Below, piece after piece: positions 292 to 63,806 of a stretch of 64,000 nucleotides of DNA. How positions within the stretch are numbered: position 1 is the first letter of the stretch; every line of letters begins with the position of its first letter. Source of the stretch: Crambe crambe (lineage: Eukaryota > Porifera > Demospongiae > Poecilosclerida > Crambeidae); NCBI GenBank assembly GCA_963924555.1, contig OZ004585.1, forward strand, positions 6,771,488 to 6,835,487, in the 5' to 3' direction. The notes below the pieces were generated by a model. That model was not told the DNA's origin. It did no database searches and saw nothing but the letters and a program-made list of their open reading frames with translations. The translations under genes and the position numbers were made by a program.

Positions 292-3200
292 CTATGCTTG
301 AGAAACAGCCAATAACACAGGTATGATTTTTGTCCTATGAGTATTAGCTACATAGCACAACTTCACCTGAGTAGATCTATCAATGCACACATATTTTTGC
401 CTGTCTGCTGAGCTCTTCAGTTCCATGATTCTGTCAAGATCTGATAACTTAATGGCACACACAAGATTAACAGAACTGTTTCCTTGACGACACCTTGACA
501 CCACCAGATTTGTTCCAGGGGAATCTGCAAAGTCCTCTACAACTGACACACCACATATATAATCTCTACCATCTGGCAACATTGCACTCCCACAAGTGAA
601 CACTTCTTCATGGAGTATGGCTATCGACTTCTTCCCATTACAGTCATCTTCCACATGGCACAGTCTCGTTATCTTGAGGCCATTAAAATCCGGTGGATTG
701 TGATCAGACACGACCAAGTAGGAGTGATTCCCACTTACAAATCCACTATGTATGACACGAGCAGATAATAGTGTTTCTTTTAGGGGGTACTCACAGGATC
801 GTAAGAGGGGTGGTTTCATTTCAATGTGATGCTGTTCAAAGACGAGAGATCCAGACTCTCTAGCTTCACTTGGTAGAATCACTTTTCCTAGGTAGTAAGT
901 GCTACCTGCAGTAAATGTGGCCATGCTGTAAAGAGTGTAAAGGGAATCGGAATCAAGTGTGATTGCTGTGGTGCTCATTTTGGAAAAGTCAGTGGTGTTG
1001 AACACAGTACATGAAACATAAGAGCACACCACCAGCCAATCCCCACCAGAACTCAGGGACATGTCTATGATAGGAATATACAATTCGATGGTTCGCTCTA
1101 CAATCAGATTCCTGGTGAGTCTCAGCAGTTTGCTCCCACTTGCAACGTAAGTCCTTTCTTCACTGTCCATTTGCAAACCTGATGGTTTTAATGGAGGATC
1201 TCCAGGCAGAATCAATTCCTCTCGTCCTCTTACTGTGGGAATAGATTTGCTTTATTATAGTGTTATTGAAACTACCCCACCTAGCTATAATTTGCTACAT
1301 GTAACTTTAAAGTCCAACTCACCATTGTCGTCGTCTATTATTGTAACTCGAACAACAGCGTTGGGAAAAGCATATCCTGTGGTTGCAATTGTGAAAGTGA
1401 TCTCAAAGTATTCATCACCTTCTGGTATATCGTCATTCAGAATCTCCACTGTAAACTCCTCTCCCGACACAGGTACTGCAAAGTTCATGCTGTGATTGGT
1501 AACACCTCTAAAATCCGAACCATCTGATGCTCCGCCAGCTAAATAATGAATTATACAAAATAGTGGAATACTGAAGTGGCTCTGTAGAAGTGTATGTGTA
1601 AAGAGGGTTATGGTTCAGTGATGTGATCACAGCATACGTATTATGTGCCAATCACTCACCATTAATGATCTTATTATAACTAGGGTATGTTTCGTGTAAC
1701 GTATTCGATTGGTGAGCGAAGCAGTTGGTGAAAGTCATTCGTATTCCATCTTCTTAGGCTAAGATATTGCTGTCAGGATGAAGTGATGGTGGCAGCTGCC
1801 TACACAAGAGGCTGTACCACAAGCACTTAGAAAATCAAGACCTACGATCCACTTAGATAAGCCTAGTGCCTCTATGACAAAATACTGTGGAAACCAATGA
1901 GCTCTAACTGTTTGCTATTAAGTGTTGTGGGCATGTTTTATTGGTGGGTTAAAGGTCAAACGAATGCATGACAATTAAAGGATAACTCATAAATATTGGA
2001 TACTCTGTCCAAAAAAAATCTTAATGGGTCCACTATAATTATTTCCTGATGACTGACCAACCTGCTACTAAAGTGTGCCAGGAAGCTCAGTGCATACCAT
2101 TTTGGTGTGCTATCATAGTCATTAAAAAGTGATAGTTCCATACCTGCACTCTCCATTGTGCTAACATATATGAGTGATGAAGCTGTAAGATCATCACCAG
2201 CTCTCTTGAATCGAACAGTTGCATGTCCAATGCTTTCTCTCACAGAAGTATCGAAAACAGAAATGCGTGGAACTATAGACAATAATAATAATTATTAGTT
2301 CATGCTGAGACTGCCACTGCATGTGTTATACATCACTTACGTCCAATGGGTTCAAGTTCATACCCAGCTGTTAATGGAAAAATATATTCAAAATAACGGC
2401 CATCTCTGTAATAATCTAAAACACTGTCATGAGCTGAAACAAAGAGGGCAGCATTAGGACTAGTATAGGAAATGGAAGCTGTTCCTGCAGGTATAGGTGT
2501 AAAAGCTCCATATCCACACACTTCGTTGTTGCTGCAATGGATGGGAATGTATCCTCCACTCCCATTATTACACTGGCTAGCAGGAAATAAAGTTGTTCTG
2601 TTGACCATGAAGTTGATTCTGTCATTGTTACTTTCATTGAAGAACTTGGCTGCTATGGCATAGCTTATGAAACGTATTGATGTTGTAGACAGTCCAAATA
2701 TGAGGTAATTATTACTGTACTGTGTGACAGGAGGAACCAGAGTTATATATTGGAAGGAACGTTCTAATTCCTTGACAAGTGTTTTATTCACATAGTAACG
2801 TGCTATTACATTTGAATACCGCATCACTATCGCTGGTCTAGATGTCTCTATGCAACAAAACTCCCATTGGTAGTCATTCGATCTCAGACCAGGTTCATTG
2901 TTGATTCTCAACTGATGATAATCTCCTGTATTGATGGTAACACTCATGGTATTTATGGGAGATCCTGAGGCTGTCCTCTGTGTACAGGTGACAGTGATCA
3001 CATTATTATCAGTTACTGATCCAACTCTGAAAATGTCACCTGGATGATGTGCAAGAGAATGACGTGCAAGAGAATGACGTGCAAGAGATGATAATGGTAA
3101 TGCAAAGAACGTTTGTCCATAAACTACATGAGGAGGAATTTGCTGAATTGTGATACAGTGACTAGTAACAACAGACAGAGGACCACTTGATGTGATGATT

Positions 3201-6143
3201 GTGCCTGTGATATCTCTATATTGAATAATGAGATATGTTTGATATTGTGACAGTGGTGGTACAGGAGTTTGGGTTCCTCCTGGTAAGGTATAAGATATCT
3301 GAAGGCCATCTTCACAGGGAACCAAGATGATCTTTGGATAAACACCGAATCTTTCTGATGATGAAAATACAAAATATTTATAGGACGTAGAGCTGAATCG
3401 GGCACATGGCAAAAGAAGAGCATTTTGCATACGAACAGTCAACTTTGCTCCATTGGTGCTTCTTATATGTATCCCCTTGTTACTCCTCTCTTCGCGATTT
3501 CCTATTAGTATTGCATAAGGTAATCGAATTTGTTCACAAGTGCCAGCTGCCACAGATATATTAATAGGGAGTCCCCCTATTTGTAACAGAGGAGTTGTTA
3601 TTGCCACAGTTGCCCCAAGAGGGTCATTGGTGCAGATTACCATTGGGCTATCTGTGCAGACGTATCTGAGTCCTATTACAAAATCAGTACCTTCATTGCT
3701 GTGAGCATTTGGGTCTAAAGAAAAGAGAAATTTTCATAGAGATTGAATAATTGTTGTATCAGAAGTAGCTCTAGCTAGAAACTAATGAGCGGTTTATTTC
3801 TTGTAAGTATAAGTATTAAGTAGAGATGGCCCCAAAATGGAACTGGATTATGTAGTATGACTGCAGCATGATACGAAACCAAGCCCTATGGCCGGAAGAT
3901 TTAGCTGGGATTATGTGGGATGGTAGAGACATAATATCTGTGCACTTATGCAGAGGGAAAATTTGACCACGCCCACTTTAGGATAAACACAGCATTTCAA
4001 TTGGCAGGATAAACCACACCCGCTTGAAAGATGCATTGAATGGAACAAAATACACATACAAGAAAAGAAAATACACATGGATGCTGATGGAACAAAATAT
4101 ATGGTGCAACAATGCAACAAAATACTGTATACATGGTGCAACAATGCACCAATGCAACAAAATACACATGGATGCTGATGCAACAAAATACATGGTGCAA
4201 CAATGCACCAATGCAACAAAATACACATGGATGCTGTGTCTTCTCCAAACTCGAGTTAGTCAGAGCATATCATTAAATCCCCATGGAACCTGCCGACATT
4301 TTGAAGACTGCCATCACCACTCAATTTGGTTTGTTTGAATTCATTCGCATGCCTCTTGGCTTGCATAATGCAGCTTCATGGATCAGGATTACATTTCTGT
4401 TTTGTCTACATTGATGATGAGCTGATTGCAAGCAGTTCTGTAGCAGAGTACGACCAACACTTACAGGAGGTTTTCCTTGTCTGTTTATTTTTTTAGCCAA
4501 AGTCCTTTGACTAAGTGTATGCAGGGACAGATGAAAGAAGTCTCTTGAGTGTATATGTACCTTTCTCCTTCTGACCAGTTCCATGGCAGCAATAATTTAA
4601 TAATTATGAGTGAGTCAAGTGTTCAGCAATTAACTATTACTATTACTAGGGCAATGTGTAACATTTAACAGCAAGAAGCTGCTTAGCAAGTATTCTTATG
4701 GCTTAGAGCTGATAGGCTCTAATTCAAAATCTTTGCTGTTGAGTTATGTAAGTCAGGGCTGTATTTAGAAAAAAATTCTTGGGGGGGGGACATGGATTGC
4801 GCCACAGTGAGGGGGGTGCGGGAGGGGGATGTGCCCCCCCCTGCACGGAGCACGAAGCTGAAACTGCCTCCATCTTACAGTGAATGGAAAGCTAAAAAGA
4901 GGTATTGAAACACTGTGTAAAAACACTTCATATAATTACAGGTTCAGTATAGATAGTTCCTATGATTTTAATTGTCTCCAGTTAGATTTTCTTTGATAAC
5001 TTCTACTGATGGTACACATGCTAGCACAGCTGTTGAAAAAAATTCCCCCCCCCCCCTAAATATGGCCCTGTAAGTGGCAGGCAGCTGCATGCACAGAAAG
5101 CTGTAATACTTACCACAATCCACTTAGATAAGTCTAGCACTTACAATCCAAGCCTAGCACCTACGTAGCTACAATCCACTAAACCAGAATTTGTATGGGG
5201 CTACTGCAGTTCTGCATGCAACCTTCATTCAAACCTTCCACAGCTGTTACCATGAAATAGTCCATTGGAGATCAAACCTGTTCAAACTCTTCCATAAGGG
5301 AAATAGGGAAATCATTCGTAGCCGAGTTAGCGTGGCTGTATTCTGCCTATGCCCCTGCATCCTCAATGGAATGTGTAGCTCTGAGAGCAACACCATCTTA
5401 CTATTGCTAAAACCTTCCAGGTAATCCAAGAATAGAGATCACTACCCCTATGGTCAGAAGGGAAATTAAGTGATATCCTGCAAGAAGGGCGTACGATTCA
5501 AGCTACTTAAGCACTCTTTAGAGGTATGTATGCATTCACTGTAGCTTTCATTAACTCTAAGTGGAGGAACTGGAATTTCACTTTTGTATTATGCAGTGGC
5601 CATTACCCCACCATCCCTACATAGAGAGAGATACCGCTCTCTTTGATACCATTCGCAGCAAGCACACAAATTTTGAAGTAAGAAGTAATTAGCAGTTGAT
5701 TATTCCGAAAAGAGGACAACCTATCTTCTACAAGGGACCAATGGTTTGGTATGTATCCCTTGTTCGCTTATCCCGACTATGATTTAGGAGCATTGAATTT
5801 AAGTGTCAATCTCGCACTAGTTGTGACTTTATTTTACAGTGTAGCTATAGATAACTAGTTGGTTGTACATTCATGCAGATTTGCAGTAGTAGTAGTAGCT
5901 TGCATGTTTCTGTTGGTATTTGCTCTATTTTTTTTTCTATCATGGACATGGTGCAAAATCAAACAGCCACTACGAATTTTGAGCACAACCACAAAGTAAC
6001 TAGCTAGCTATAGCTCATGGTAGCTAGAGCTAATCATGTCACTTACTTCTTCTGAGTAGCCTGAGAGGTTCGTCCTCCACACTACTGAATGCCACAGTGA
6101 AGAGGGAAAATACTACAAGAATCAATTTAGCATCCATCATCAT
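292..6143 (-). CDS. secreted IgGFc-binding-N / Calx-beta / Sema-like protein
   Basis: Five exons on the minus strand join in phase: 6143-6047, 3714-2341, 2272-2144, 1538-1323 and 1232-292, giving 918 aa. Residues 1-20 form a signal peptide (MMMDAKLILVVFSLFTVAFS). Residues 33-490 resemble the N-terminal domain of IgGFc-binding protein (FCGBP), opening with an EGTDFVIG-type strand. Residues 491-605 form a Calx-beta domain, with the signatures SVRESIGHATVRF, NDDIPEGDEYFEI and VTIIDDDNG. Residues 606-918 resemble the first part of a plexin Sema propeller, including a CAIKLSDLDRIM segment. No PSI, IPT or membrane segment follows, so the product looks secreted and the propeller incomplete. The first start was chosen because it begins the signal peptide. 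Domain calls are by eye: Calx-beta is strong, FCGBP-N good, Sema moderate. The first intron (6046-3715) contains a Gypsy relic and a MITE. Confidence 0.72.
4024..4235. repeat. irregular tandem repeat, AT-rich
   Basis: Blocks of about 70 bp built from 'atgcaacaaaatacacatgg' and 'atggtgcaacaatgcacc' recur about three times. All reading frames over it are repetitive and without recognisable protein. It sits in the first intron of the IgGFc-binding/Sema gene. Confidence 0.7.
4276..4490 (+). mobile_element. Ty3/Gypsy reverse-transcriptase relic
   Basis: Conceptual translation gives the Gypsy RT block DILKTAITTQFGLFEFIRMP followed by LGLHNAAS. After a frame change and an internal deletion it continues FCFVYIDDELIASSS, containing the YIDD catalytic signature. 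Only about 70 residues survive, across two frames, with no LTRs or other domains nearby. It is a dead fragment, antisense inside the first intron of the leftmost gene. Confidence 0.8.
4754..5070. mobile_element. MITE, CAGGG/CCCTG ends, 5-bp TSD taagt
   Basis: A 317-bp non-coding element begins CAGGGCTGTATTTAG and ends CTAAATATGGCCCTG, flanked on both sides by taagt (4749-4753 and 5071-5075). Subterminal G-runs and C-runs could form a hairpin. It belongs to the same family as 7667-7856 and 22616-22912. Confidence 0.8.
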
Positions 6144-25572: not shown

Positions 25573-27240
25573 TTAAATTAGCCAAGGCTTATTCATATCA
25601 GACACTGTAGCCTGAGACACCCGAATATAGAGACAATCATCAATGACATAATCATCAAATAAGGAATCATCATCATCAGAATCATCATCAGAATCATCAT
25701 CACCATCATCAAGCTTCAAAAGTTTTGTAACCCCCCATCCTACATTGTTCTTTCCATTATCAGCAGTGACTTTTCTATTCTTTGGACTTGATCGCCTCTC
25801 CATGAATCTAGCTACGCCTTCCTTGTGGTCAGAGTCACTCTCTTGGTTCAGTAGCTCAAACGAGATTGTCCCTCTGAATGGCCATTTTAGCTTCTCATCA
25901 AATTCACCACGCATGAGGCACACCATAACAGACACATGGGAACCGATAGCCTCATCAAGTCCATTGGCATATACTTTGATATATAACTTATACCCTTCAG
26001 AATGTGTATAAAAGGGAGGGCTGTCCCATTCCACACAGTTATCTCTCAGAAATTTAAATCTTTGCATCTGGAATACAACTGGAGGGATTTTAACTTCCAA
26101 TTTTTGAACACGATTATTGAGTAATTCAATTCTACCAAGAGCCATTGCCAAATGATCAACAGCCAAGTTATGAGTGGCTAGATTTTTTTTGAGGAGTTTT
26201 TTCTTGCAGCCAACCATTGAATAAGGACATGAGATAAGTTCCTGAGAACATTCTTCTGCGTGTTTCTCCATCTCTCTCAGTTCTCCTTGCCATGGACAAC
26301 CATATTCATTATAAGAACATTTGACTCGGAAAGATAAGATATCTCGCTCACCTGCATAAAAAGGGACAGCATAGCTACCAACCATCTAGGGTTTCCCTGG
26401 GATTTGGCCATGTGTCTAGGTGTCCAGGAATTAAGCCTAGGTGTCCAGGGATTTTATTGTGGTCAGTGGTTATAATAATAATAACACCAGTAGCTAAAAT
26501 AACTGGAATGCTTATATACTTCATATGTCTAATGACTGGTATTGAGTCTACAACCTCAACAACCATAATAATTTATGCATAGCTACTGTGAGACAACGTC
26601 ATTAATGAATGTTTGACATAATAGGATCTCCATTATGTCGAGCCTAGTACTATGCAATCTGCTTACCCACTCCAGAAAGGTTTACCAAAAGAAGAAGCAG
26701 GTACACATATCAGTGAAAATGTTATGATTATCATAATGAATCTAACCAATCAATTTGTAAACAAAATTGATGGGAAACTGGTTCATAAAATTTAGGCAAT
26801 TTTTTTTTGACCTGATAGCTAGTAGCTAAGTCGATTGTGAGGGGTGGGGATCATCTCAGCTAGGCTAAATTGTAGCTAGCTAGCTAGTAGCTATAAGCCT
26901 AGCTCAATTATGACATGTTGTGCCAGTCTACCCTTTAGCTAATAGGCAATCTGGTTAGATAATACCCTCTTGTTCACTCCCTTCCTTATATATAAAACTA
27001 ACTTCTTTTATCATGAAATCCAGAGCACTGTCTGCTCCTACAGTTGGAGCAGGTCGAAGCAAATCCACTGTTTTGTTGGTCAAGGCAATACTTGCATAGA
27101 ACCTTTCCACAGCATTGCGTCTGATGAGGATTTCGGGCCGGGTACTTGCAAATGAGACAGATCAAGGAGTCAGGAACCTCGTTTAGAAATTCACATTCAT
27201 AACCACCCTTAGACTTTGCCTCACGATCACTCACAGCCAT
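25573..27240 (-). CDS. RING-TRAF-MATH protein, TRAF-like 1
   Basis: Two exons, 27240-27003 and 26351-25573, join in phase to 338 aa. The first encodes an N-terminal RING finger (CLICKYPARNPHQTQCC, then CKYC and CSNC). The second encodes a TRAF-type zinc-finger region (GCPWQGELREMEKHAEEC), a short helical linker and a MATH domain (WDSPPFYTHSEGYKLYIKVY, then WPFRGTISFELLNQ) ending in NKPWLI. By family this is a TRAF-like E3 ubiquitin ligase acting as a cytoplasmic adaptor for receptor signalling. Compared with vertebrate TRAFs the zinc-finger array and coiled coil are short. The loop before the last MATH strands is expanded into an aspartate-rich run (DDGDDDSDDDSDDDD). The start fits the paralogues. 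Two NRF1-like palindromes lie 110-145 bp upstream. The 651-bp intron holds a repeat shared with 38790-38900. Confidence 0.88.
26388..26520. repeat. dispersed repeat, partner at 38790-38900
   Basis: The phrases built on 'gtgtccagggattttattgtggtcagtggttataa' recur in inverted orientation within an intron of the pleckstrin gene. It is a short interspersed non-coding element, here in the TRAF-like 1 intron. Confidence 0.6.
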
Positions 27241-29386: not shown

Positions 29387-32300
29387 CTAAATTAGCCATG
29401 GCTTGTTACTGTCTAGGACTTCTACTCTACAAACACGAATGAACACACAATCTCTATCATCATACAAGTCCATATCAGCAGTATTCAACTGAGGAAAGAA
29501 AATAAACTTCCACCCAACTTTACTCTTTCCCTGAGCTGCAGTCACTCTCCTGTTCCGGTCACTATCACGTCGCTCCAAGAACTTTGCCTCCCCTAACTCA
29601 TGATCATCATCAGAAAATTGGTTGAGCATACCGAAATGAATGATGCCTCTAAACGGCCAAATTAAATGGTCATCATATTCTCCATGCATGAGACAAACTT
29701 CAACTGATAAAGACCGACCGCTACAGTCCACTTTCAAATATAATTTATATCCTTTGGGCTGGGAGTAAAATGGAGGACTCTCCCATATGATTTTGTTCTC
29801 TCTGTGGCGTGTGAGATTGGATAACTTAAAAACCACAGGTGGGAGATTGCAAGGTGAATGACTACTCTGACTTCCTACATTCCCTCTCAATTCCAATGCT
29901 TGCAAACGTTCAGCGAGAGAATTCACTTTCTGAATAGCCATTTTCAAGTGCTCTGTGCTGCATTCCTCTTCATGTACAGTCAGTTTCTTTTTCGCCATCT
30001 TAGCCTTGCAGCCGAGAGAGGAGTATTTGCAAGCCGAAAGTTCACTGGAACACTTGGTAAGGTGCATTCCCAGCTGACTGAGTTCTCCTGTCCAACTGCA
30101 GCCACCATCATGATGAAGACATTTGACTGTTAGAGACTGGAGCTCCCGATTACCTGCAGTGAGGATTATAACTCTTTGAAATGATCTGTCAGACCATGGG
30201 AAGAGTTGATCAGCCATATTAGCCTTTAAATAGATACATTCAATGAGGTGTATAACATACAATGGATAGAACCAGTCCATAGCTAAAATCGAAATGGATA
30301 AAAGTGAAAAATTGATCATTTAATGAATGGAGGTAACCAGCACATCACAGTGGGACTTCTTAATACCTCCTTTCCTATAGAGACAATGGGACAATGGACC
30401 CCGATAAGGTATTAAGCATGTAAACATGGTGTCCAACAGGTGAATTACATGTAAACATGGTGTCCAACAGGTGAATTACATGTAAACATGGTGCCCAACA
30501 GGTGAATTACATGTAAACATGGTGTCCAACAGGTGAATTACATGTAAACATGGTGTCCAACAGGTGAATTACATGTAAACATGGTGTCCAACAGGTGAAT
30601 TACATGTAAACATGGTGTCCAACAGGTGAATTACATGTAAACATGGTGTCTAACAGGTGTTTTAAACATAAATTAGACATAATGGGTGCTGATACATCTG
30701 TCCACATGTATGCAGTTGCTCAAAGAGTGCCTGATGAAAATACAACAAATTTGAACAACGCTACATCTCAAAGCCTGTTTGGATTCTACGGTTAACTTCT
30801 GCAAGACCATATAATTTATGCAAAAATAGTTGATAGCAAGTGGTCATAAAAAAATGTAATAGTAAATGATGTGGTCACAGTACTACTACCCATAAATTTC
30901 CAGTATGATACAAGATGAAATGTGTGAAAGAACTAAGCCAAAAATTTGCTCATCTGAGTAGATGAACAAAAATTAAAGAGGCTGTAATTTCAGATGGTCA
31001 TGAAAATTAAAAACAAGACTAGAGTTCAATGCCCCACTGTAATAAGCTTATACTCGTTTCAGCTGGTTAGGATCATTAATTTTCGTGCAATCTATATCCA
31101 GCAGGATTGAATTAACTTGGAGGCGAAGCCAGCAAGAAAAACATGCAATCAAGCCACCAAAAGAGCGTTCCTTATGCTATCAGCATTATGGCTTCAAGAA
31201 AACAAGTATGAAATATGCTAGCAAAATGTGTCGAATAAGCTGGGGCAATAAACTAGAGGTAAAAAATAGGGATAAGAAATAGTTGACCAAAAATCAGCCA
31301 CTGAATTCAAGAGATTGGTGAGAGATAGTTTTATCTCTTGCCATTATAGAGAGCTTCATATCTCGGGAAGAATTGTTCATTTCCCTCATGTTTGGTATGT
31401 GTGGTAATGCATGTTTGGAGTTTCAAGACATCTTTTCATAGAGATTGGCTTCCTTGGCAACCATAGTGGGTGCGGTTGTCAGACCACCCTTAATCAGCAG
31501 GATTTTAGACAGCTGCTACCGGGGGGGGGGGGAGGGAGAGAGAGAGAGAGAGAGGACAAGCTTTTTGCAAAATTGGCTTGCAAAGCTCCAAAATAGACGC
31601 ACAGTAAAGAATGTAATTAACCTGATATTTGACAGGCTGTTTTATTTTCCCTGGACACAAGAAAGATCCAGTTGCTAGAAAGCAAACCAGTTTTAGCTAG
31701 CTGGGCTTTGAAATTCAGGTAACAAATTAAATCTCAAAAACAGGATGGGAATGGATTGGGTTCAGTCGCTTTTGAGATATCTACCTGTTAGATCTATCTA
31801 ACAGTCCAGGTTGGGTCTGCTCAAAGCATGGAATGGCTGAAAGTCAAATGTGCCTACTCAGCAATAATTGGCATTTAGCACTGGTAGTGTTTGTGGTTAA
31901 ATAGTGTTTGTGGTCAATTAGTGCTAGTATGTATGGATTATAGATTAAGTGGTTACTCATCACTCACTTTTCTTGTCCGAAAAGCTCTTCCACTTTCCCT
32001 TTCTGCAGTTTGGGCATGCTCGGTGGGCTGACCTCTTCAGCTTCCGAAGACAAGTCCTACAAAATACCTTTCCACAGCAGTCCACTTGCTGGGGATCACG
32101 TGCAGCTGAAGTACAGATGAGACACTGGAGTTCGTCTGGAATCTCGCTCACAAACTGGTATTCAGTATCATCACCTTCTTCTTCTTCTTCCTTTTTTACT
32201 CGAGCACGTGGCCCCGGCCCCAGTCTTAGTACATGTTCTAGCAATTCTGGTGAGACAGGAGAGAGCGTCTCGCGCGCCAAGCCGTAGAAGTCTTCACCGT

Positions 32301-32400
32301 CGTAGTAAGGGTATTCATCGGAGTCAGATAACAGCCCAAAAGGATACGCCGGGCCATCATCAAAAGCATCAAAACCTCGATCAAAACCTCCAGTCGCCAT
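29387..32400 (-). CDS. RING-TRAF-MATH protein, TRAF-like 3
   Basis: Two exons, 32400-31968 and 30153-29387, join in phase (SDKK-S-NRELQ) to 399 aa. An acidic N-terminus (about 95 aa, including a KKEEEEEGDD run) precedes a RING finger (CLICTSAARDPQQVDCCGKV, then CRTC and CPNC). TRAF zinc fingers follow (GCSWTGELSQLGMH; CKYSSLGCKAKM), then a helical linker and a MATH domain (WESPPFYSQPKGYKLYLKV; WPFRGIIHFGMLNQ) ending NKPWLI, as in TRAF-like 1. The family role is E3 ligase or adaptor. It lacks the aspartate run of its neighbour. The 1.8-kb intron contains a 31-bp minisatellite. Its start codon lies 145 bp from the divergently transcribed pleckstrin gene. Confidence 0.9.
30418..30660. repeat. 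31-bp minisatellite, about 8 copies
   Basis: The unit 'catgtaaacatggtgtccaa' plus 'caggtgaatta' repeats about eight times with near-identity, in the TRAF-like 3 intron. There are no spacers, so it is not CRISPR-like. Confidence 0.92.
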
Positions 32401-32545
32401 TTTGAATGTCTTGCACTCTGACCTAAGCTTAATTACTCATGCGTGCAGAATAAGAGGCGTGTCTGCGGACTCATTAAAATTCCTAAAGTTAACCGTTATT
32501 GTATTGCAGCGAACTAAGAGACTAGAGACTGAGACACCCATGTAA
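32401..32545. promoter_or_regulatory. 145-bp divergent promoter interval
   Basis: The start codons of TRAF-like 3 (minus) and pleckstrin (plus) are separated by 145 bp, so both 5' regions and core promoters must fit here or inside first exons. No TATA box is evident. Shared regulation of the two genes is an inference from spacing only. Confidence 0.5.
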
Positions 32546-40978
<8,433 letters not shown>

Positions 40979-41631: not shown

Positions 41632-51702
<10,071 letters not shown>

Positions 51703-51976: not shown

Positions 51977-54900
51977 TCATGTGCGCTGAACTCTAATATA
52001 TGAGTAGAGAGGTGGGAGACTATATTCAGGGGGAGGACCATCTGGTGGTGGTGATGGAGAAAATCGTTCCAATCTTGACACGCCCCCATGAATGGGGGAG
52101 GGGACAAGCTCGTACTCTCCATCAGGTTCATCTATATCGGATCCTTCTTCTTCTAAAAGTAGGTGTGCCCCTTCTGCCCTCTCGGGGGGCCCTTGCACCC
52201 GATTAATGAAACGAGGGAGATCACTAGCCAAGATGATCGGTCTGCCTCGTCGAGGAGGGAGGTCTAATTCATCTGGCAGAATCACAGGTCTTCGATTTAA
52301 GAATGTCTTCTCTCCGTCATGTATGTCCGTTATCAAAAGCTTCCTCTCTGACCTTCTCCTTCTGTACAATCCGAAGGCCAAGAAACTTGCCAAGAGGCAC
52401 AAGAGAGCCACAACAGCTATGGGGACCAAAATAGAGAGAAGGAGAAGCAGCCCTCGTCGTTCAGGCCGTACCCTCTGGGTCACAGGAGGATTCACAACAG
52501 TCGCATTACAGGGTCCATTTATAAATGGCATTTTTGTTGGGATGAAAGGAGAAATGGAACTGATGAATGTCGAAGTGTACCCCACATTGTTGACATATAT
52601 GGTTGAAACCCATTCCAGGAATTCCATGCAGTTGGAAATGGAAAGATTGCTGTACGTGATGGCCACACTCCCATTCCTGAAACCACTAATGTAAGTTATG
52701 CCTGGATCTGGAATTCCACTTGAATGAGAGGAGAGGAGAGATACGAGCTGAAGTCGGGAAGAGAGATTTTGGCTGAAGGTAAGAAAGTTGCCTTCGATGA
52801 AGAATGTCAGGAAATTGAGGACTGGGGGAGATCGGGGGTAAACTCGTACCACGATGAAATCGTGTGCCCTTCCTCCATTGCCATCATCTGCTTGTAAGAG
52901 AAAAACATGCTCCGTGATTTTATCTCCAATGAGTTGTTCTGTTAGGGGCAAACCCTCAATTCCCTGGTTTCTAAGTTGAATCCAGGTAGTGTTTTGAAGA
53001 GGATCAGCATTGGCATCAAGTAGTGTTAGTATCAACGTATCAGAATCAGGATCATGGAATATCTGATCAGACAGCGTGTATTGAAATAACAAACCTTCAG
53101 TGACTACAAATAGAGTACCAAGGGGGTTGAGCAAAATCGGGGGGTTATTTGGAGGGGGGATTTCACAGAGAGTGCCAGAATAACTGCTGGTACAATTACA
53201 GCTAAATTCCCCCCGAGGCAAGGAATTACAAGATGCATTGTTTAGACAAGGATTCAATTCACAACCATCAATTTCTTCATTGCATGTTGCCCCCCGAAAA
53301 CCTTGGGGGCAAGAGCAGTTGTAGTCATCGAATGATAACATTAAACATGTAGCATTGTTGAAGCAGGGAGTCTCATCACAGGGGTCGATTTCTATTTCAC
53401 ACAGCCCCCCAGTCAATCCCTGGGGGCAAGAACAAGTGAAGTTCTCAAAAGACTGTCTTATGCACGTAGCATTGTTGACGCAGGGAATCCTGTCACAGGG
53501 GTCAATTTCTATTTCACACTGACCCCCAGTGAATCCTTGGGAACAAGAACAAGTGAAGTTGTCGAAAGACTGTCTTACACATGTAGCATTATTGAAGCAG
53601 GGGGTCTCATTACAGGGGTCAATTTCTATCTCACACAGACTCCCAGTGAATCCTTGGGGACAAGAACAAGTGAAGCTCTCAAATGATTGTCTTGTGCATG
53701 TAGCATTGTTGAAGCAGGGGGTCTCATTACAGGGGTCAATTTCTATATCGCACAGGCCCCCAGTGAATCCTTGGGAACAGGAACAAGTGAAATTCTCGAA
53801 AGACTGTCTTGCACATGTAGCATTGTTGAAGCAGGGGGTCTCATTACAGGGGTCAATTTCTATTTCACACTGACCCCCAGTGAATCCTTGGGGACAAGAA
53901 CAAGTGAAGCTCTCAAAAGACTGTCTTGCACATGTAGCATTGTTAAAGCAGGGCATCTCATCACAGGGGTCAATTTCTATATCACACAGGCCCCCAGTGA
54001 ATCCTTGGGAACAAAAACAAGTGAAATTCTCGAAAGACTGTCTTGCACATGTAGCATTATTGAAGCAGGGGGTCTCATCACAGGGGTCAATTACTATCTC
54101 ACACAGACCCCCTGTCAATCCTTGGGGACAAGAACAAGTGAAGTCTTCAAATGATTGTCTCGAGCAGGTAGCATTATTAAAGCAGGGCATCTCATCACAG
54201 GGGTCAATTTCTATCTCACACAAGCCCCCAGTGAATCCTTGGGAACAAGAACAAGTGAAATTCTCGAAAGACTGTCTTGCACATGTAGCATTATTAAAGC
54301 AGGGCATCTCATCACAGGGGTCAATTTCTATCTCACACAGCCCCCCAGTGAATCCTTGGGGACAAGAACAAGTGAAGCTCTCAAATGACCGTCTTGTGCA
54401 AGTAGCATTATTGAAGCAGGGTGTTTGATCACAGGGGTCAATTTGTACATCACACAGACTCCCGGTGAAACCATCTGGACACAGACAGGTGAAATTCTCA
54501 CTGGATAGTGGAATACATGTGCCATTGTTGAAGCAAGAGGCAGTGTCACAAGGATTCAATGGAGTTTCACACCTATTCCCTGTCAAGTCATCAGGACACA
54601 AGCACAAAAACTGGTTGGAAGAAATGGTGACACAGGTACCATTCCCACATGGGGATGGATCACAAGGATTCACTTCTTCCTCGCAGAGGTTGCCCCGGAA
54701 ACCATTAGGGCACGTGCAGTTAGAGTTATTGGGACTGAGGATGTTGCAGGAACCGTTGTTCAAGCAAGGATTTGGTTCACAAGGGTTAGTCTCATCTTGA
54801 CAGAGAAGACCCCCATAGCCTTGTGGACAAAAACATCTGAAGGAGTCTAAAGATGATGTGAAACATGTTCCATTGTTCAAACAAGGGTTTGAATCACAAA

Positions 54901-57900
54901 GGTTAATTTCAATGTCACATATAGTGCCTTCAAATCCCACTAGGCATGTGCAGTTAAAACCATCACTATCATCAGAATTAGAGCATGTTCCATTGTTGAG
55001 GCAAGGATTGGGGTCACAAAAGTCGATCTCGAGTTCACACAGTGAGCCATTGAATCCTACTGGGCATGTGCAATTAAAACCGCCATCGTCATCGGAGTTG
55101 GAGCATGTTCCATTGTTGAGGCAAGGATTGGGGTCACAAAAGTCAACCTCGAGTTCACACAGCGAGCCATTAAATCCTACTGGGCATGTGCAGTTAAAAC
55201 CGCCATCGTCATCAGAGTTGGAGCATGTTCCATTGTTGAGGCAAGGATTGGGGTCACAAAAGTCATCCTCGAGTTCACACAGCGAGCCATTGAATCCTAC
55301 TGGGCATGTGCAGTTAAAACCGCCATCGTCATCGGAGTTGGAGCATGTTCCATTGTTGAGGCAAGGATTGGGGTCACAAAAGTCAACCTCGAGTTCACAC
55401 AGCGAGCCATTGAATCCTACTGGGCATGTGCAATTAAAACCGCCATCGTCATCGGAGTTGGAGCATGTTCCATTGTTGAGGCAAGGATTGGGGTCACAAA
55501 AGTCAACCTCGAGTTCACACAGCGAGCCATTAAATCCTACTGGGCATGTGCAATTAAAACTGCCATCATCATCAGAGTTGGAGCATGTTCCATTGTTGAG
55601 GCAAGGATTGGGGTCACAAAAGTCATCCTCGAGTTCACACAGCGAGCCATTGAATCCTACTGGGCATGTGCAGTTAAAACCGCCATCGTCATCAGATATG
55701 GAGCATGTTCCATTGTTGAGGCAAGGATTGGGGTCACAAAAGTCAACCTCGAGTTCACACAGCAAGCCTTCGAATCCTGTTGGGCATGTGCAGTTAAAAC
55801 CGCCATCGTCATTGTCATTAGAGTTGGAGCATGTTCCATTGTTGAGGCAAGGATTGGGGTCACAAAAGTCAATCTCGACATCACACAATCTACCAGTGTA
55901 GCCTTCTAAGCAGGAACAGTTGAAATCGTTCAGTGTGGTGATACAAGTTGCGTTATTGAAGCATGGATCAGGATCACATGAATCAATTTCAATCTGACAC
56001 AATTCACCAGTGTAACCTCTCAAACAAGAGCAATTGAAATCATTCAGTGTACCAACACAAGTGGCATTGTTAAAGCATGAACTAGAGTCACATGAATTGA
56101 TCTCTATCTCGCAGAGGCCTCCAGTATAACTATCCAAGCAAATGCAATCGAAGGCATTCAACCTGTTGATGCATGTGGCATTGTTACGGCAAGGGTTAGG
56201 GTCACATAAGTTGGCACCATTCTCACAAAAACTTCCCATAAAACCTCCTGGGCACATGCAACTGAAAATATATTCCACCACTCTGCCTTCAATAGTGAGT
56301 GGAAATGACGAACATGTGCCGTCATTGAGGCAGGGAGAGGTTAAACACGGATCGAAAGGTTCCTCGCACAAGGGACCAGTTCGACCAGGTGGACAGGTAC
56401 AATCAAACCCCAACATTGATGTTCCTGGAATCAATGATGTCACAGTGCAAGTTCCACCTTCCCGACATGGGTTCATATTGCAAGGGTTCGTAATTTCAAC
56501 CTCACATGTGTCGCCTGTATAGCCAAGAGTGCAGTTGCACGTTCGGTTGGTAAGAGGTAAGGGAACACAGGTGCCGTTGTTGAGGCAGGGGTTTGGGGTG
56601 CATGGGTCAATTTCTGTCCCACATTGATCTCCTGTGAACCCGTTGGGACACACACACACAAACTCTATTGGGGTCACACCAATACACGTCCCATCGCTGC
56701 CACACGGAGATGGTGAACAGGGGTCCATCTCAATCTCACACAAGTCTCCAGTGAATTCACTTGGACACGAGCACGTGAAGTTAAAATCGAAGCTAGTGCA
56801 AGTGCCGTTGTTGGAGCATGGAGTGGAGAGGCAAGGATCAAGTTCCTCTTCACAGAGCATCCCTGTGAATCCACTGGGGCAGATGCAAGTGAATCCATTA
56901 ATACCGTCCACACACGTGCCATTATTGAAGCAAAGTTTAATTGCGCAGTCATCGATATCGATGGAGCAATTCTGTCCTGTGAAGCCGGCAGAACATTCAC
57001 AAGTATAAGTTGAATTGCCGTCGATGCACAATGTGCTGCTATTAGCATTGCATGATGCTCCACGTGAACAGAAATCGATATCTACGGTGCAGAACTCTCC
57101 TTCCCATCCTTGATAGCACATGCATATGAAATCAGAGCCATCATCTGACACAATTTCAATGCATGATCCATTATTGCAATCAATGGTGTTGCATATTGGC
57201 ACTGTGGGAGAGACAGAGGGGGTAGGTATGGGAGTGGAAGGTGGTAGAGACTCGATCAAAGATGTGAATGGTTGTGGTATTGTTACAGTGGATGAATCTG
57301 GCATGAAGATATCAGTAGGCATGTCCACTTGAGATGAAGATGGCGGGAAGCGGGATGGTGCCTCCATTGAGGATGAAAATGGTTGGACTGATACTGTGGA
57401 GGGATCTGGCATAAAACTATCAGTTGAAGAAAATGGCAAATCTGTAGTTGTTGGTATGAAGCTAGGAGTAATGACTTCAGTAGTAGATAGCATTGTTCTA
57501 CTTTCTATTGTGGTGGAAAGAGAAATGAAGAAAGAGCTCAGATCAGTACTTATGGGAGGAATTGGAGTTGACATCGGTTGGGCCAGAGTTGGGATGAGGC
57601 TACTTGTAGAGATGCTCAAATCATCTGACATCGAGAAGGGCATCAAAAGATCTGAGCTTAAAGAAGGCTCTGGAGTTGGGATGAAGCTACTTGTAGAGAT
57701 GCTCAAATCATCTGACATTGAGAAGGGCATCAAAAGATCTGAGCTTGAAGAAGGCTCTGGCGTTGGGATGAAGCTACTTGCAGAGATGCTCAAATCATCT
57801 GAGGGCATCAAAAGATCTGAGCTTAAAGGCTCTAGAGTCATGATGAAGCTACTTGTAGAGATACTCAAATCATCTGAGGGCATTAAGAGATCTGAGCTTA

Positions 57901-60900
57901 AAGAAGGCTTTGGAGTCAGGATGAAGCTACTTGTAGAGATACTCAAATCATCTGAGGGCATCAAAAGATCTGAGCTTAAAGGCTCTGGAGTCAGGATGAA
58001 GCTACTTGTAGAGATACTCAAATCATCTGAGGGCAAGAGATCTGAGCTTAAAGAAGGCTGTGGAGTCAGGATGAAGCTACTTGTAGAGATACTCAAATCA
58101 TCTGAGGGCATCAAAAGATCTGAGCTTAAAGGCTCTGGGAAGCTACTTGTAGAGATACTCAAATCATCTGAGGGCAAGAGATCTGAGCTTAAAGAAGGCT
58201 GTGGAGTCGGGATGAAGTTACTTGTTGAGATCCTCAAATCTAATGATGGGGGTGTGTCAGTGAGGAAATCAGAAGGAAGTGGTGTCGCCATAAATGAGGA
58301 GAATAAAGAAGAAGACAATGCTGAGACTGCAGAAGAGATTGACAGGGAAGGTACAAGAGTAAGTATACGTGATGACAAAGATGATGCTGATACCGAAGGA
58401 GAAGAAGGTCCAGGAGAAGGAGCCACAGAGAGTAAAGGTAAAGATGATGAGACTGAGAGTGGAGGAGAAGGATCCACAGACAAAGATGATGAGACTGAGG
58501 TAGAAGGTGGAGGAGTAGGTGCTACGGAAAGTATGGACGTGGGCATGGAAGATAACTCGTCAATAACGGAAGGGATGGTGAAGGTGAGAGAGGGAGAGGA
58601 AGGAGTTGGCGTGAGCACCATCTGAATAGTTGTTGTCCCTGGGACAACAAATACCATTGAAGAGGAACTGCTTCTAATCTCCATTGTCTGGACATCGATC
58701 ACCACTACTTCAGTCTCCATGGTTTCTGAGAGTGATGGTGATGAAGGAGATGATGACAATGGTAGAGGGAAGGACATTGAAGTGAAGAGTGAGGAAAGTG
58801 ATTCTCTAACACCCCTAGAGGATTCTGAAATGAGAATGACCCTTGTGGGAGGGGCATCTTCGAGGGAGCTAGTCCCACCTGGTCTTTGTGAGGGAAGAGG
58901 CATGGTTGGACTTGGAGATGGAAAACGAAAACCAGCTGAACTTGTTTCAGTCAAAGATGAACTTGCCATGCTCAGATCCCCAAACCTCGTGGAACTAGTT
59001 TGATCGGCTGAAATTATCTGACTGGCTGATATGGTCCGATCAATTATGGTCCTCTGACCTGTTGGGATATTTGGAAATATTGGACTTGGAATTACTTGAC
59101 CACCTCGACTCACGTCACTTCCTTGTGAACCAGTCTGACTGGTGGGGATTATCTCCCTGAAAGTGCTCATAGGAATTACCTGACTTGTCAGACTGGTTTG
59201 ACTACTTTGAGTTGTAATTGTATCGGTTCTTATGGCACTCAAAATATCAGCTTGAGGGGTGTCCATTACCTCCAGGGAAGCGACGACTTGACTGGGGTTG
59301 ATTATTGAGCTAATGGAAATTAAACTTTGTTCTCCAGATCCTCGGATAATGGAGGTGGCTGTCGGCCCAATGGAACTAGTCGATGATGCTTGAACACTGG
59401 TGTTGGCAATTGGACCCACAGAAATAGTTGACAATCCTCGGACGCTGGAGGTGGCTGTTGGCCCGACAGAACTAGTTGATGATCCTCGGACGCTGGAGGT
59501 GACTGTTGGCCCAACAGAACTAGCCAATGATGCTTGGACACTGAAGGTGACAGTTGGCCCCACAGAACTAGTTGACGATCCTCGGACATTGGAGGTAACA
59601 GTTGGCCGCACAGAAGTAGTCGTAAACTCATCCTCTGGGATTGGCACAACGACTTCTTGCCTCCTGACTCGCCGGTGTTCATCTTCACTCCTCACTTCAG
59701 ACTGAGCTATAATGGACCCTTTCACACTAGAAAAAACCTGATAGCACGCCAGAGATTGCTCCACTTCATCCTCGATAACCAGTCCATTTTGACAAGCAGA
59801 GAAAGTCTCTTCAAGTCTACTCACTAGAGAAGAAAGGTCATTTGTAGTTTCAGAAAATTCACAGCCAAACGGTACTGATAGAATTGTCATGTGTTCTAGC
59901 AACTCAAAGTTACTTGGTGTCACAAGTTGACTCCAAATTTGTGTTGCTTCACTATCAGAGTCGTCTAAATTCCATAAGGATAACCATTTGATGCAAGCAT
60001 CTAGAACATCTGCTGTTCCTTTGTAGAGACGTGTTCTTGTGAGTGAGTCCATTGTTGTTATGGGAGAGATGAAGATGATGTTGGTGAGTATAGTGGATTC
60101 TTTTTTCGAACAGTTGAAATTGATTGGATCACAATGCGACAGTACGACAGGAGGGAGGTTAGAATCAGCCGTGATGTTGATGGATACAATCTCGGTGGAT
60201 ACATAACTCTTGCCCTCTCTCTGCCCATGTGCTTTGATACTGATGTAGGCATGGCCTATGTTGGAAGGGAGGGGTACACCAGAGAAAAGACCAGTCCGAG
60301 GGTCCAGGTAGAGCCATGATGGAAGTGCATTCTGACCAGCTTCATTTGCCTGATGACATCAACAATAAATAATTCTTATTAGTGTGAAACATTACCTTTC
60401 TAAACCTCAAGACAATGAGTGACATACTAAGGGTAGAGAGATCATCCTCCTCTTTCGGAGGTTATCTTTCCTTTGTTGAGAGGTTTGTCCTACGTATTTC
60501 GGGTGGTTCCACTTAGTATAGTAAATATCATGCCCATGGTACCATCTCAAATCTCACACGACTGAGATTACAACACAGACAGTGGGTAGGATATGGTGAA
60601 GCAGGAAGGGGGGAAAATCACTACTCTTTTTTTGGATGACCCAATTATGCTATCAAAAGTGTTTATTAGAGCCATACTGGTATTACTGGGACCTAAAAGG
60701 GGAGAGGAGAGAGGAGGGACTCAACCTCATCCCTGGATCTAGCCCTAGCCCTAGCCCAGTCCCGGTTTCAACACAGTGATGTAGGAAGATTTCCTCCATT
60801 GGAGCATTAAGATACATCGTTACATATTAGTGTTCATATAGCCATTGCATGTCCCAGCAAAAAAGACCCCACACTCAATACATGAATACACTAACATGCA

Positions 60901-62344
60901 AGCATGATTTTAGTTATCTTTGCATGCCACCCAAAAATTAAAGCATCTCAGTTCATACCTACCTGCAGCATAAGCCGCAGACTGTGTAACTGTGGCTGTA
61001 CTGTCCAGAGTTCTTTTAGTTATGTGGGAAATTTTCGCTGTCAAAAATTTGTTGCAATGTTCAACAATGATCCTTCGTGTGACTCAACTGTGTTTCCATG
61101 ACACTTCTACTGCACTTAGAAATGTCACAGAAGCACAACGAAGCACTCAGGAGTGTTGCTAGCTAGTACACCCAGTGTCACCTTTAACTTTGCAACAGGC
61201 TTATAACATGTGCCCCATGTAAGATTGAAAGCATTGTGGTGAGTAAAGCTTTAGCCGATGCCGTCACCGTATTGCAAAGGATGGAACCAGAAGAACGTAT
61301 GTATGAGATATGTAAAAAGTGCCCCTCTCATATCATTCAACCCCCAAGTGGCTCACTTTGCTCACAGTTATTATAAAAGCATAGGAATAACACTTTAAAT
61401 AAAAGGACATGCAGGTGAAAATTAACCCCTACTTGTCATTACTGTGAACTCTAGTATCCTTAACATTATCTACACTAATCCAGCCACCTTCGGGGCCAGC
61501 ACAAGTGTCCTGATTAGAGGGGTGGCCTCATTTCAGGGGTGGATTTATATTATGAAATATACATAGGGACTTTTTAAAGTGTCCTAAATACAGGGGTGGC
61601 CAGGAGAGGGTACTCAATCAGGAACTGCATTGAGCTTAACTATACCTGGAAATATGAGATGGAATCCATTCTACTGAAGGCTTCATTCGGAATTTGATAC
61701 TGAAATAATCTTCCAGTTGGGATCACAAAGTCTGGGAGCTGAAATAGTATATTGTCCGATGTATTTGACATAGGATCTTCATCAGAACTAATTTCACCAA
61801 TTATCCAGGATTGGAACGTGGATTTGGAAAGAGATTCCTGCTGAGCATAACCTCCATTCTGAGCGGCAGACGAGTGAAGGAGAGATGAGAAGAGGAGAGC
61901 AAAAAGAAACAGAATCTTGAAGAAGCCACGTGAGCTCTGGTGAAAAATTGGCAGTAGATGAAGTGATGTGGAAGGAGATCGCTTTAGTCTTGTCACAAGG
62001 CTATTGTAAGAAAATTGTCTTTTGGAATTCTGGTGTCTGTTCAAGCAAGGATTTTGTTGTCTTGCACTCCATGATGATAAAGATTTCTCCATTAGATTTG
62101 CTTTCTCTGGTTCACTGTCACCAACTGACACTAACTCTTCTTCCAATCTGTTTTTAGATTTCAATTTGGATGCAATTGGTATGATTGTTTCAATACTTTT
62201 GCAGTATGAATGGTTATAATGAAGAACTGTAGGAGATGGGTTAGTTCTATCATCTTGCAGAGGCAAATGAAGGTTTCTTCTTTCATTCTCAGCAAGGGTT
62301 AATGCTTGTTGGTGAGGAGCTGAATTCTCCATTGCATCCAGCAT
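51977..62344 (-). CDS. DAG1: dystroglycan homologue with 34 EGF-like repeats
   Basis: Exons 62344-61646 and 60349-51977 (8.4 kb) join in phase to 3,023 aa. The order is as follows. A hydrophobic signal segment (141-157) is followed by a CADG domain (about 195-310; GRLFQYQIPNEAF, LPSWLYLDPRTGLFSGVPLP). An S6-like domain follows (about 315-430; TILSVPFGCEF). RVRR (460-463) marks a furin site. A Ser/Thr/Pro mucin-like region is 464-1280. The 34 EGF-like repeats are 1286-2628. A second CADG (about 2632-2745) and a SEA-like domain follow, with NG|SVAIT at 2793/2794. The membrane segment is 2866-2895. The 128-residue tail has RRRR, then LPDELDLPP, PPEY (3006-3009) and PPLY (3012-3015). Human dystroglycan (895 aa) shows the same order without EGF repeats, with a furin RVRR, a Gly-Ser maturation site and a PPxY dystrophin-binding tail. 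Predicted role: cell-surface matrix receptor linked to dystrophin/utrophin. The 140 residues before the signal segment are odd, and the true start is uncertain (M85 is an alternative). Confidence 0.9.
53165..57193 (-). repeat. EGF-repeat-coding region with 117- and 120-bp tandem arrays
   Basis: Within the dystroglycan exon, EGF repeats 12-19 (about 54950-55870) are 120-bp units differing by a few bases. Repeats 23-33 (about 53300-54540) are 117-bp units. The remaining repeats are diverged. Each typical unit is DPC-x4-PC-x-NN-(A/G)-TC ... C-x-C-x(8)-C. Open frames on the other strand (for example 53529-54428 and 54858-55901) are shadows of this periodicity. Confidence 0.95.
57596..58240 (-). 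repeat. mucin-region tandem repeats
   Basis: Within the dystroglycan mucin-like region, a unit of 22-31 residues built on LSSDLLPSDDLSISTSSFI is repeated about nine times with length variation (66-93 bp). It is rich in Ser and Thr and would be heavily O-glycosylated. Confidence 0.88.
59660..59671 (-). other. furin-type cleavage site RVRR
   Basis: Codes RVRR followed by Gln, at residues 460-463 of the dystroglycan homologue, between the S6-like domain and the mucin region. In vertebrate dystroglycan an RVRR site at the same place is cut by furin to release the N-terminal domain. Confidence 0.8.
60350..61645 (-). other. dystroglycan intron 1
   Basis: 1.3-kb intron with donor GTATAG and acceptor TCATCAG, splitting the first CADG domain in phase 0. 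It contains diverged pieces of the 'gtgtcctgattagaggggtg' repeat (about 61500-61610) also seen at 45700-45760. No other gene is seen. Confidence 0.8.

Positions 62345-62709: not shown

Positions 62710-63806
<1,097 letters not shown>

Follow-up and report, generated by a model that had tools for sequence, protein, structure and literature searches.

Can a core matrix receptor take up a large foreign module in its ectodomain and still be recognised for what it is? This question is raised by a gene in a 64,000-nucleotide window of the demosponge Crambe crambe (assembly GCA_963924555.1, contig OZ004585.1, positions 6,771,488 to 6,835,487); the window is the whole stretch analysed, and all positions below are counted within it. 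On its minus strand lies a homologue of dystroglycan, a core receptor for the matrix that is implicated in a group of muscular dystrophies, in which 34 EGF-like repeats stand between the mucin-like region and the IG2 domain. We consider it probable, judging from the sequence, that the gene encodes a demosponge dystroglycan in which an inserted and tandemly grown EGF array forms a stalk carrying the mucin, and that the product is a dystrophin-linked receptor.

Gene model and domain layout

The model has two exons (62344-61646 and 60349-51977), and its conceptual translation of 3023 residues runs, from the N to the C terminus, through IG1/CADG, an S6-like region, RVRR followed by Q, the mucin, 34 EGF repeats, IG2/CADG, a Gly-Ser/SEA-like region, a transmembrane helix, and a PPxY tail. 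The splicing, start codon, and expression are those that we infer from the sequence. A preliminary description of this DNA had given the same coordinates, strand, and domain order, with 34 repeats in approximately 1,340 residues, and was right on all these points: the exon model agrees, and the 34 repeats span 1343 residues. The features are as follows.

61646..62344, minus: coding exon 1; 233 codons, frame open up to the donor CAG/GTATAG in phase 0, start codon uncertain
61862..61927, minus: hydrophobic signal segment, residues 140-161 (GFFKILFLFALLFSSLLHSSAA, then Q); from the translation, cleavage site placed by eye
61646..61747, minus: exon 1 part of IG1/CADG, residues 200-233; phmmer match to 1u2c and Pfam He_PIG
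60350..61645, minus: IG1-intron, 1296 bp, phase 0, 8 codons upstream of LPSW; GT...AG with the frame kept, splicing predicted
51977..60349, minus: coding exon 2, 8373 bp; 2790 codons plus stop, zero internal stops, open frame of 2793 amino acids
60158..60349, minus: exon 2 part of IG1/CADG, with LPSW at 60314-60325; PDB match, Pfam, and shuffles
59672..60151, minus: S6-like region, residues 300-459, tentatively assigned; joint IG1 and S6 score, two Cys aligned with human, Pfam S6 silent
59660..59671, minus: furin-type RVRR, then Q (from residue 460); R-x-RRQ is the published dystroglycan motif
57194..59659, minus: mucin-like region, residues 464-1285 (822 residues); composition and internal DNA tandem repeats
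53165..57193, minus: 34 EGF-like repeats, residues 1286-2628 (1343 residues); six-cysteine pattern, Pfam EGF, and tandem units
52826..53161, minus: IG2/CADG domain; 0 of 2000 shuffles against human IG2
52454..52825, minus: SEA-like alpha/beta maturation region, tentatively assigned; collinear alignment, with Cys2807 and Cys2847 opposite human Cys
52667..52672, minus: Gly2793-Ser2794, putative alpha/beta cleavage site; NGSVAITYSNLSI opposite human RGSIVVEWTNNTL
52367..52453, minus: transmembrane helix; 0 of 2000 shuffles
51980..52366, minus: cytoplasmic tail, 129 residues, with the KTFLNRRPVILPDELD block, PPEY, and PPLY; 0 of 2000 shuffles, motifs, Pfam DAG1 below its cut-off

A motif scan placed the PPxY motifs of the tail at residues 3006 (PPEY) and 3012 (PPLY). 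The mucin, counted over residues 465-1285, contains 26.2% Ser, 12.4% Pro, and 11.2% Thr, and a single N-sequon. The statement that the extracellular part is several times longer than in vertebrates was correct as to length; however, the 822-residue mucin contributes to this difference, and it is not due to the EGF array alone.

Upstream of the signal segment there are approximately 136 open codons (61937-62344, minus), which is unusual for a signal peptide, and a good-looking acceptor (tttttcaccag/AGC, phase 0) is found at 61937/61936; the true start may therefore lie in a short upstream exon. A plus-strand open frame (62620 onward) starts within approximately 300 bp of the modelled start.

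Identification as a dystroglycan

When the N-terminal 480 residues were searched against the PDB with phmmer, all six matches at an E value of ≤10 were dystroglycan, the best being 1u2c over residues 202-399 (E of 1.7e-10). The IG1 domain also exceeded the Pfam cut-off for He_PIG (residues 203-277; E of 2.4e-7). Each part of the protein was compared with human dystroglycan by local and end-free scores against 2000 shuffles; the human sequence used agrees, bar single residues, with the PDB chains where these exist. None of the 2000 shuffles reached the score of IG1 (z of 21.1 and 19.6), IG2 (z of 9.8 and 9.9), the transmembrane helix (z of 8.2 and 6.7), or the tail (z of 6.2 and 6.4). Aligned end to end with human, the C-terminal region scored 19.1 bits, and the best of 200 whole shuffles scored 5.0.

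The sole modelled intron falls between Q and A, opposite human K95 and V96, in phase 0 and 8 codons before LPSW in both genes. One intron within IG1, placed at human 95K/V96, is reported to be universal across 35 species (PMC5216574), and we regard the intron position as the strongest single character for assigning the sponge gene. The dystroglycan furin motif R-x-RRQ (PMC4582122) appears as RVRRQ ahead of the 822-residue Ser/Thr/Pro-rich region. Because the N-terminal PDB matches, the shuffles of IG1, IG2, the transmembrane helix, and the tail, and the intron at the published IG1 position all agree, it is near certain on these grounds that the gene belongs to the dystroglycan family. The earlier proposal, namely, an orthologue of dystroglycan whose mucin and IG2 are separated by an EGF array, was thus borne out by the N-terminal matches, the shuffles, and the intron site. 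Profile searches, however, recovered only one of the two ends that this proposal relied on: the N terminus was matched (PDB and He_PIG), whereas the C terminus reached Pfam DAG1 only below the cut-off.

No second dystroglycan copy was found in the assembly, where there was one additional match only (E of 0.716), and a whole-genome search with Pfam DAG1, run without a working control, found nothing. An NCBIfam scan gave no family, and in viral and genome contig collections 5 and 35 pattern matches to the C-terminal 400 residues were obtained, 0 of which were confirmed as relatives.

The S6-like and SEA-like regions

Taken alone, the S6-like region did not match human S6 significantly, since 358 and 285 of 2000 shuffles reached its score. 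When it was joined to IG1, the score against human rose from 35.4 to 38.2 bits, compared with 33.9 bits when the S6 region was reversed; the joint score was reached by 4 of 1000 shuffles (0 of 200 in a smaller run), and none of 423 overlapping windows drawn from 27 further open frames of the genome attained it. The interval from IG1 to RVRR, at 160 residues, is similar in length to S6. The Pfam S6 model (PF18424) was silent on this region (human control, 255.1 bits), a phmmer search of the region alone against the PDB gave no dystroglycan match, and Pfam scans of the S6-like piece and the IG2-SEA piece, each apart, found nothing at an E value of ≤10. It has been reported that S6 was apparently gained after sponges split off (PMC5216574); our results are suggestive of an S6 remnant in the N terminus of the C. 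crambe protein.

In the SEA-like region, the Gly-Ser window is the best ungapped 13-mer match to human, although 95 of 300 shuffles reach its score. After the Gly-Ser, Cys2807 and Cys2847 align with the human Cys pair, in a region that scores weakly. The preliminary description had claimed the full vertebrate order; this holds for IG1, RVRR, the mucin, IG2, the transmembrane helix, and the tail, whereas the S6-like and SEA-like parts can be placed only tentatively.

Structure and growth of the EGF array

The repeats were counted by a six-cysteine pattern; a narrower pattern gave 33, missing a long-loop repeat at residues 1568-1608, and Pfam EGF scored 33 stretches in exon 2 (E of 2.2e-192). 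The array is open over 4029 bp without a frame break. By Tandem Repeats Finder, a unit of 120 bp occurs in 7.9 copies (94% matches) and one of 117 bp in 9.9 copies, the latter also showing a higher period of 234 bp (4.9 copies); a weak 114-bp pair (1.9 copies, 76% matches) was identified as well, and the mucin contains more tandem arrays. The periods of 114, 117, 120, and 234 bp are every one a multiple of 3.

It could be envisioned that two genes have been fused in the model or in the assembly, or that the array is spliced out. The splice sites are predicted, and tandem repeats are prone to misassembly; however, the mucin, array, IG2, transmembrane helix, and tail are a single open frame within a 9.17-Mb contig, and dystroglycan features stand on both sides of the array in the right order. 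We consider such an artefact highly improbable. A fusion of two genes in particular was thought unlikely because the array and the dystroglycan C terminus lie in a single open 8.4-kb exon; for the same reason it is unlikely that the array and the dystroglycan ends belong to different mRNAs, which was the outcome named in advance as one that would overturn the preliminary description.

Near-identical units, with DNA identity of up to 0.98, raise a different possibility, namely, that the array arose mostly as a captured EGF segment expanded neutrally in tandem and has little functional effect. The high match rate of the 120-bp units, the presence of the 117- and 234-bp units, and the tandem repeats of the mucin in the same gene are as expected under such growth. 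In contrast, pN/pS between units was 0.28 (7 units) and 0.25 (10 units), values that gene conversion could affect but that suggest constraint on the protein sequence as the block duplicates or homogenises. The unbroken frame and the overlap of glycosylation motifs described below, which is higher than in four other arrays examined, likewise speak against neutral growth, and we judge it quite unlikely.

As to the origin of the array, no EGF repeat outside the gene exceeded 59% identity to the query among the 150 of 574 candidates that were scored, so that no recent donor was seen within that sample. Exon 2 without the array measures 8373 - 4029 = 4344 bp, close to the 4254 bp of exon 3 of Amphimedon queenslandica, the exon that follows its IG1-intron (PMC5216574). 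Judged by length alone, A. queenslandica probably lacks the array, which would then be a lineage-specific insertion in C. crambe.

Glycosylation motifs and the comparison with binding arrays

The O-fucose, O-glucose, and O-GlcNAc sites given here, like the N-sequons, are sequence motifs and thus putative sites. An O-fucose motif is found in 31 of the 34 repeats, and in 28 of these 34 an N-glycan sequon (NN[GA]TC and kin) includes the O-fucose Thr. The array has 64 N-sequons, or 1.88 per repeat. In four of the nine other EGF-bearing frames (one of them, on contig C16, covered over only 1653 of 2322 amino acids), the overlap of sequon and O-fucose motif occurred in 4/34 (the partly covered frame), 10/57, 1/35, and 0/15 repeats, with 0.27 to 1.02 sequons per repeat. 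In the C. crambe dystroglycan the overlap also lies outside the tandem blocks, in the repeats at residues 1368, 1406, 1483, and 1615. These counts, 31 O-fucose motifs and 64 sequons, agree with the earlier suggestion of a separately glycosylated stalk, which is supported as a prediction.

The same suggestion had extended to a Notch-like surface, and an array of this kind might indeed serve as a ligand-binding module, either Notch-like or of the sort used in sponge cell-cell aggregation, which would give the receptor another, glycan-independent partner, with O-fucose tuning the interaction. The abundance of O-fucose motifs, an O-GlcNAc motif in 17 of 34 repeats, the matches to O-fucosyltransferase in the genome, and the first 11 repeats, which are mostly diverse by eye (two of them form the weak two-copy tandem), would fit such a role. 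Nevertheless, the strict calcium-binding EGF consensus was found in 0 of 34 repeats (a relaxed pattern of our own found 10), the O-glucose motif was present in only 2 of 34, and Notch LNR was not among the 8 Pfam families found in the 2790-residue exon 2 at an E value of ≤1. Moreover, the two homogenised tandem blocks resemble growth in length rather than a set of distinct binding repeats. A binding module is therefore, in our assessment, unlikely, and the Notch-like surface was not supported by the analysis.

Candidate partner genes in the same genome

Vertebrate dystroglycan binds laminin through a glycan made by LARGE. In the C. crambe genome, two tandem LARGE-type genes lie approximately 15 kb apart on contig C16, each a single open frame of approximately 700 amino acids with GT49; Pfam GT8 and GT49 together were shown for one of them, to which the other is, by eye, almost identical. 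A LARGE duplication has been mentioned for vertebrates and perhaps urochordates (PMC8478517). There are two protein O-mannosyltransferase loci (PMT on contigs C13 and C16), 5 O-FucT matches, and 19 laminin-G matches. EF-hand_3 was found in two genes, of which the one on contig C8 is a dystrophin-type gene with WW, EF, and ZZ; the WW halves in adjacent frames and the EF/ZZ sequence were read by eye. On contig C12, at approximately 3.83 Mb, a second dystrophin/dystrobrevin-like gene was also read by eye, with a WDHP half-WW, an EF-hand, a ZZ, and a coiled coil.

The M3 glycan pathway is reported to have lost 4 of its 13 enzymes in Porifera (PMC8478517). A LARGE-type glycan on the C. crambe protein is possible given these genes, and a vertebrate-type glycan linker is doubtful.

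Proposed function of the array

We propose that sequence encoding EGF entered the gene between the mucin and IG2 and then expanded through tandem duplication. In the resulting receptor, the intron would be spliced out and the protein would enter the endoplasmic reticulum by way of its signal segment; furin would cut after RVRR, and cleavage at Gly-Ser would yield alpha and beta subunits that remain associated. The PPxY motifs of the tail would be bound by a dystrophin module. The 34 EGF repeats would form a membrane-proximal stalk with a coat of N-glycans and O-fucose. An EGF repeat is 2.5 to 3 nm long; the stalk may thus lift the O-glycosylated mucin tens of nanometres above the cell, at most approximately 100 nm, and the receptor could thereby reach the matrix across the sponge glycocalyx and mesohyl. 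A stalk is the most likely reading because the ends are conserved, the array lies membrane-proximal to the mucin, it has grown in length, and glycan motifs are dense.

Several results weigh against this proposal. At the C terminus, Pfam DAG1 scored the gene product at 18.8 bits (E of 0.0011), under its cut-off of 23.3, and in a phmmer search of the C-terminal 400 residues against the PDB dystroglycan appeared only at E values of 0.13 and 0.38, among chance matches to ribosomal proteins. The SEA/MAT_NU part alone was not significant against human, its score being reached by 1074 and 494 of 2000 shuffles, and when only the SEA-like part was shuffled, 14 of 200 cases still attained the score of the C-terminal region. 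AlphaFold2 models built without relatives failed both for S6 (pLDDT of 37.5) and for IG2-SEA (pLDDT of 37.7); Foldseek on the poor IG2-SEA model gave no match at an E value of ≤0.001, a result that carries no weight. In the array, the sequons and O-fucose sites are predicted motifs, repeat counts are not independent given tandem duplication, the possible effect of gene conversion on pN/pS applies here too, and with no repeat fitting the strict calcium-binding consensus a stiff rod is not assured. As to glycans, the Thr-Pro-Thr-Pro (TPTP) LARGE site of vertebrates is absent after the furin site, with TPT present once in the mucin; LicD (FKTN/FKRP) was not found in the genome by profile, nor was FKRP by a query without a positive control. 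Vertebrate-type matriglycan on this protein is therefore uncertain.

A broader view would join two claims. The first is that the complete vertebrate-type N-terminal module (IG1, S6, and furin site) predates the split between sponges and other animals, as opposed to the published later gain of S6. The second is that dystroglycan in this particular demosponge lineage became a composite adhesion molecule; with a shared N-glycan/O-fucose acceptor in 28 of 34 repeats, the two glycosylation routes would compete for a single Thr in most repeats and thereby set the reach or binding of a dystrophin-linked receptor. We consider this combination rather unlikely.

Other features of the window and genome

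Long GA/CT microsatellites flank the gene (approximately 48520-48940 and 63440-63650) and give rise to long spurious open frames (RERERE and LSLSLS). Elsewhere in the window, the following were observed.

25576-26385 and 29390-30319, minus: two TRAF-type zinc-finger/MATH open frames, TRAF-like genes
31963-32436, minus: RING frame, near the preceding two
2336-3733, minus: 466-residue open frame with an IgGFc_binding domain (E of 6.9e-14)
39847-39919, minus: tRNA gene (74.2 bits)

On contig C12 (418500-426800), an open frame of 2190 residues has 57 EGF repeats and, after them, laminin-G matches; we take this gene to be neurexin/crumbs/agrin-like. Contig C119 (19,532 bp) is mitochondrial, with TGA as Trp, the order rns-trnG-trnV-rnl, trnR(ucu), and an atp9 open reading frame (Pfam ATP-synt_C, E of 1.4e-13). 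These features are among the marks of demosponge mitochondrial DNA, and atp9 is reported in all 22 demosponge mitochondrial DNAs except that of A. queenslandica (PMC2444032). By these marks the host is most likely a demosponge, and A. queenslandica was rejected as the host on account of the retained atp9 and the different size of its dystroglycan intron.

Comparison with known dystroglycans and EGF-array receptors

Within the open-licence literature searched, we did not find a description of EGF repeats in a dystroglycan; within that literature, the predicted 34-EGF stalk would be a previously undescribed layout of a known receptor. Dystroglycan is reported in sponges but not in ctenophores (PMC4582122 and PMC10293626), and sponge dystroglycans are described as long, with a Ser/Thr-rich N-terminal half (PMC4582122). 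"EGF" occurs 0 times in the main text of PMC4582122 and PMC5216574, and A. queenslandica was compared by description only.

The C. crambe gene has in common with vertebrate DAG1 (PDB 1u2c, 8uf4, and 9c3c) the IG1 domain, R-x-RRQ, the mucin, IG2, the transmembrane helix, the DELD block, the PPxY tail, and the modelled IG1-intron at the same codon boundary; a Gly-Ser position and a Cys pair are putatively shared. It differs in having 34 EGF repeats between the mucin and IG2, in lacking TPTP after the furin site, and in the high divergence of its S6 and SEA parts. The A. queenslandica dystroglycan (Aqu1.217766) likewise has two coding exons and the IG1-intron, together with a Ser/Thr-rich N-terminal half (PMC4582122), and its exon 3 is near in length to C. 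crambe exon 2 minus the array; however, its intron is 47 bp long, compared with 1296 bp in C. crambe (PMC5216574).

The array is reminiscent of Notch and other EGF-array receptors, in which EGF repeats with O-fucose motifs are likewise arrayed in their tens. Unlike Notch, the C. crambe protein has no strict calcium-binding repeats, few O-glucose motifs, and no LNR match, and it carries dystroglycan ends.

Lengthening of the ectodomain by repeated modules that are not tied to exons is also seen in the dystroglycans of Nematostella, which has six IG2_MAT_NU modules, and of arthropods (PMC4582122). Those proteins repeat dystroglycan's own module, whereas the C. crambe protein repeats a foreign one, EGF. 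With its IG1, furin site, possible S6 remnant, and inserted 34-EGF array, the C. crambe gene suggests that the ectodomain of the receptor has been open to foreign-module insertion while both ends stayed recognisable, and it provides a natural test of the effect of ectodomain length.

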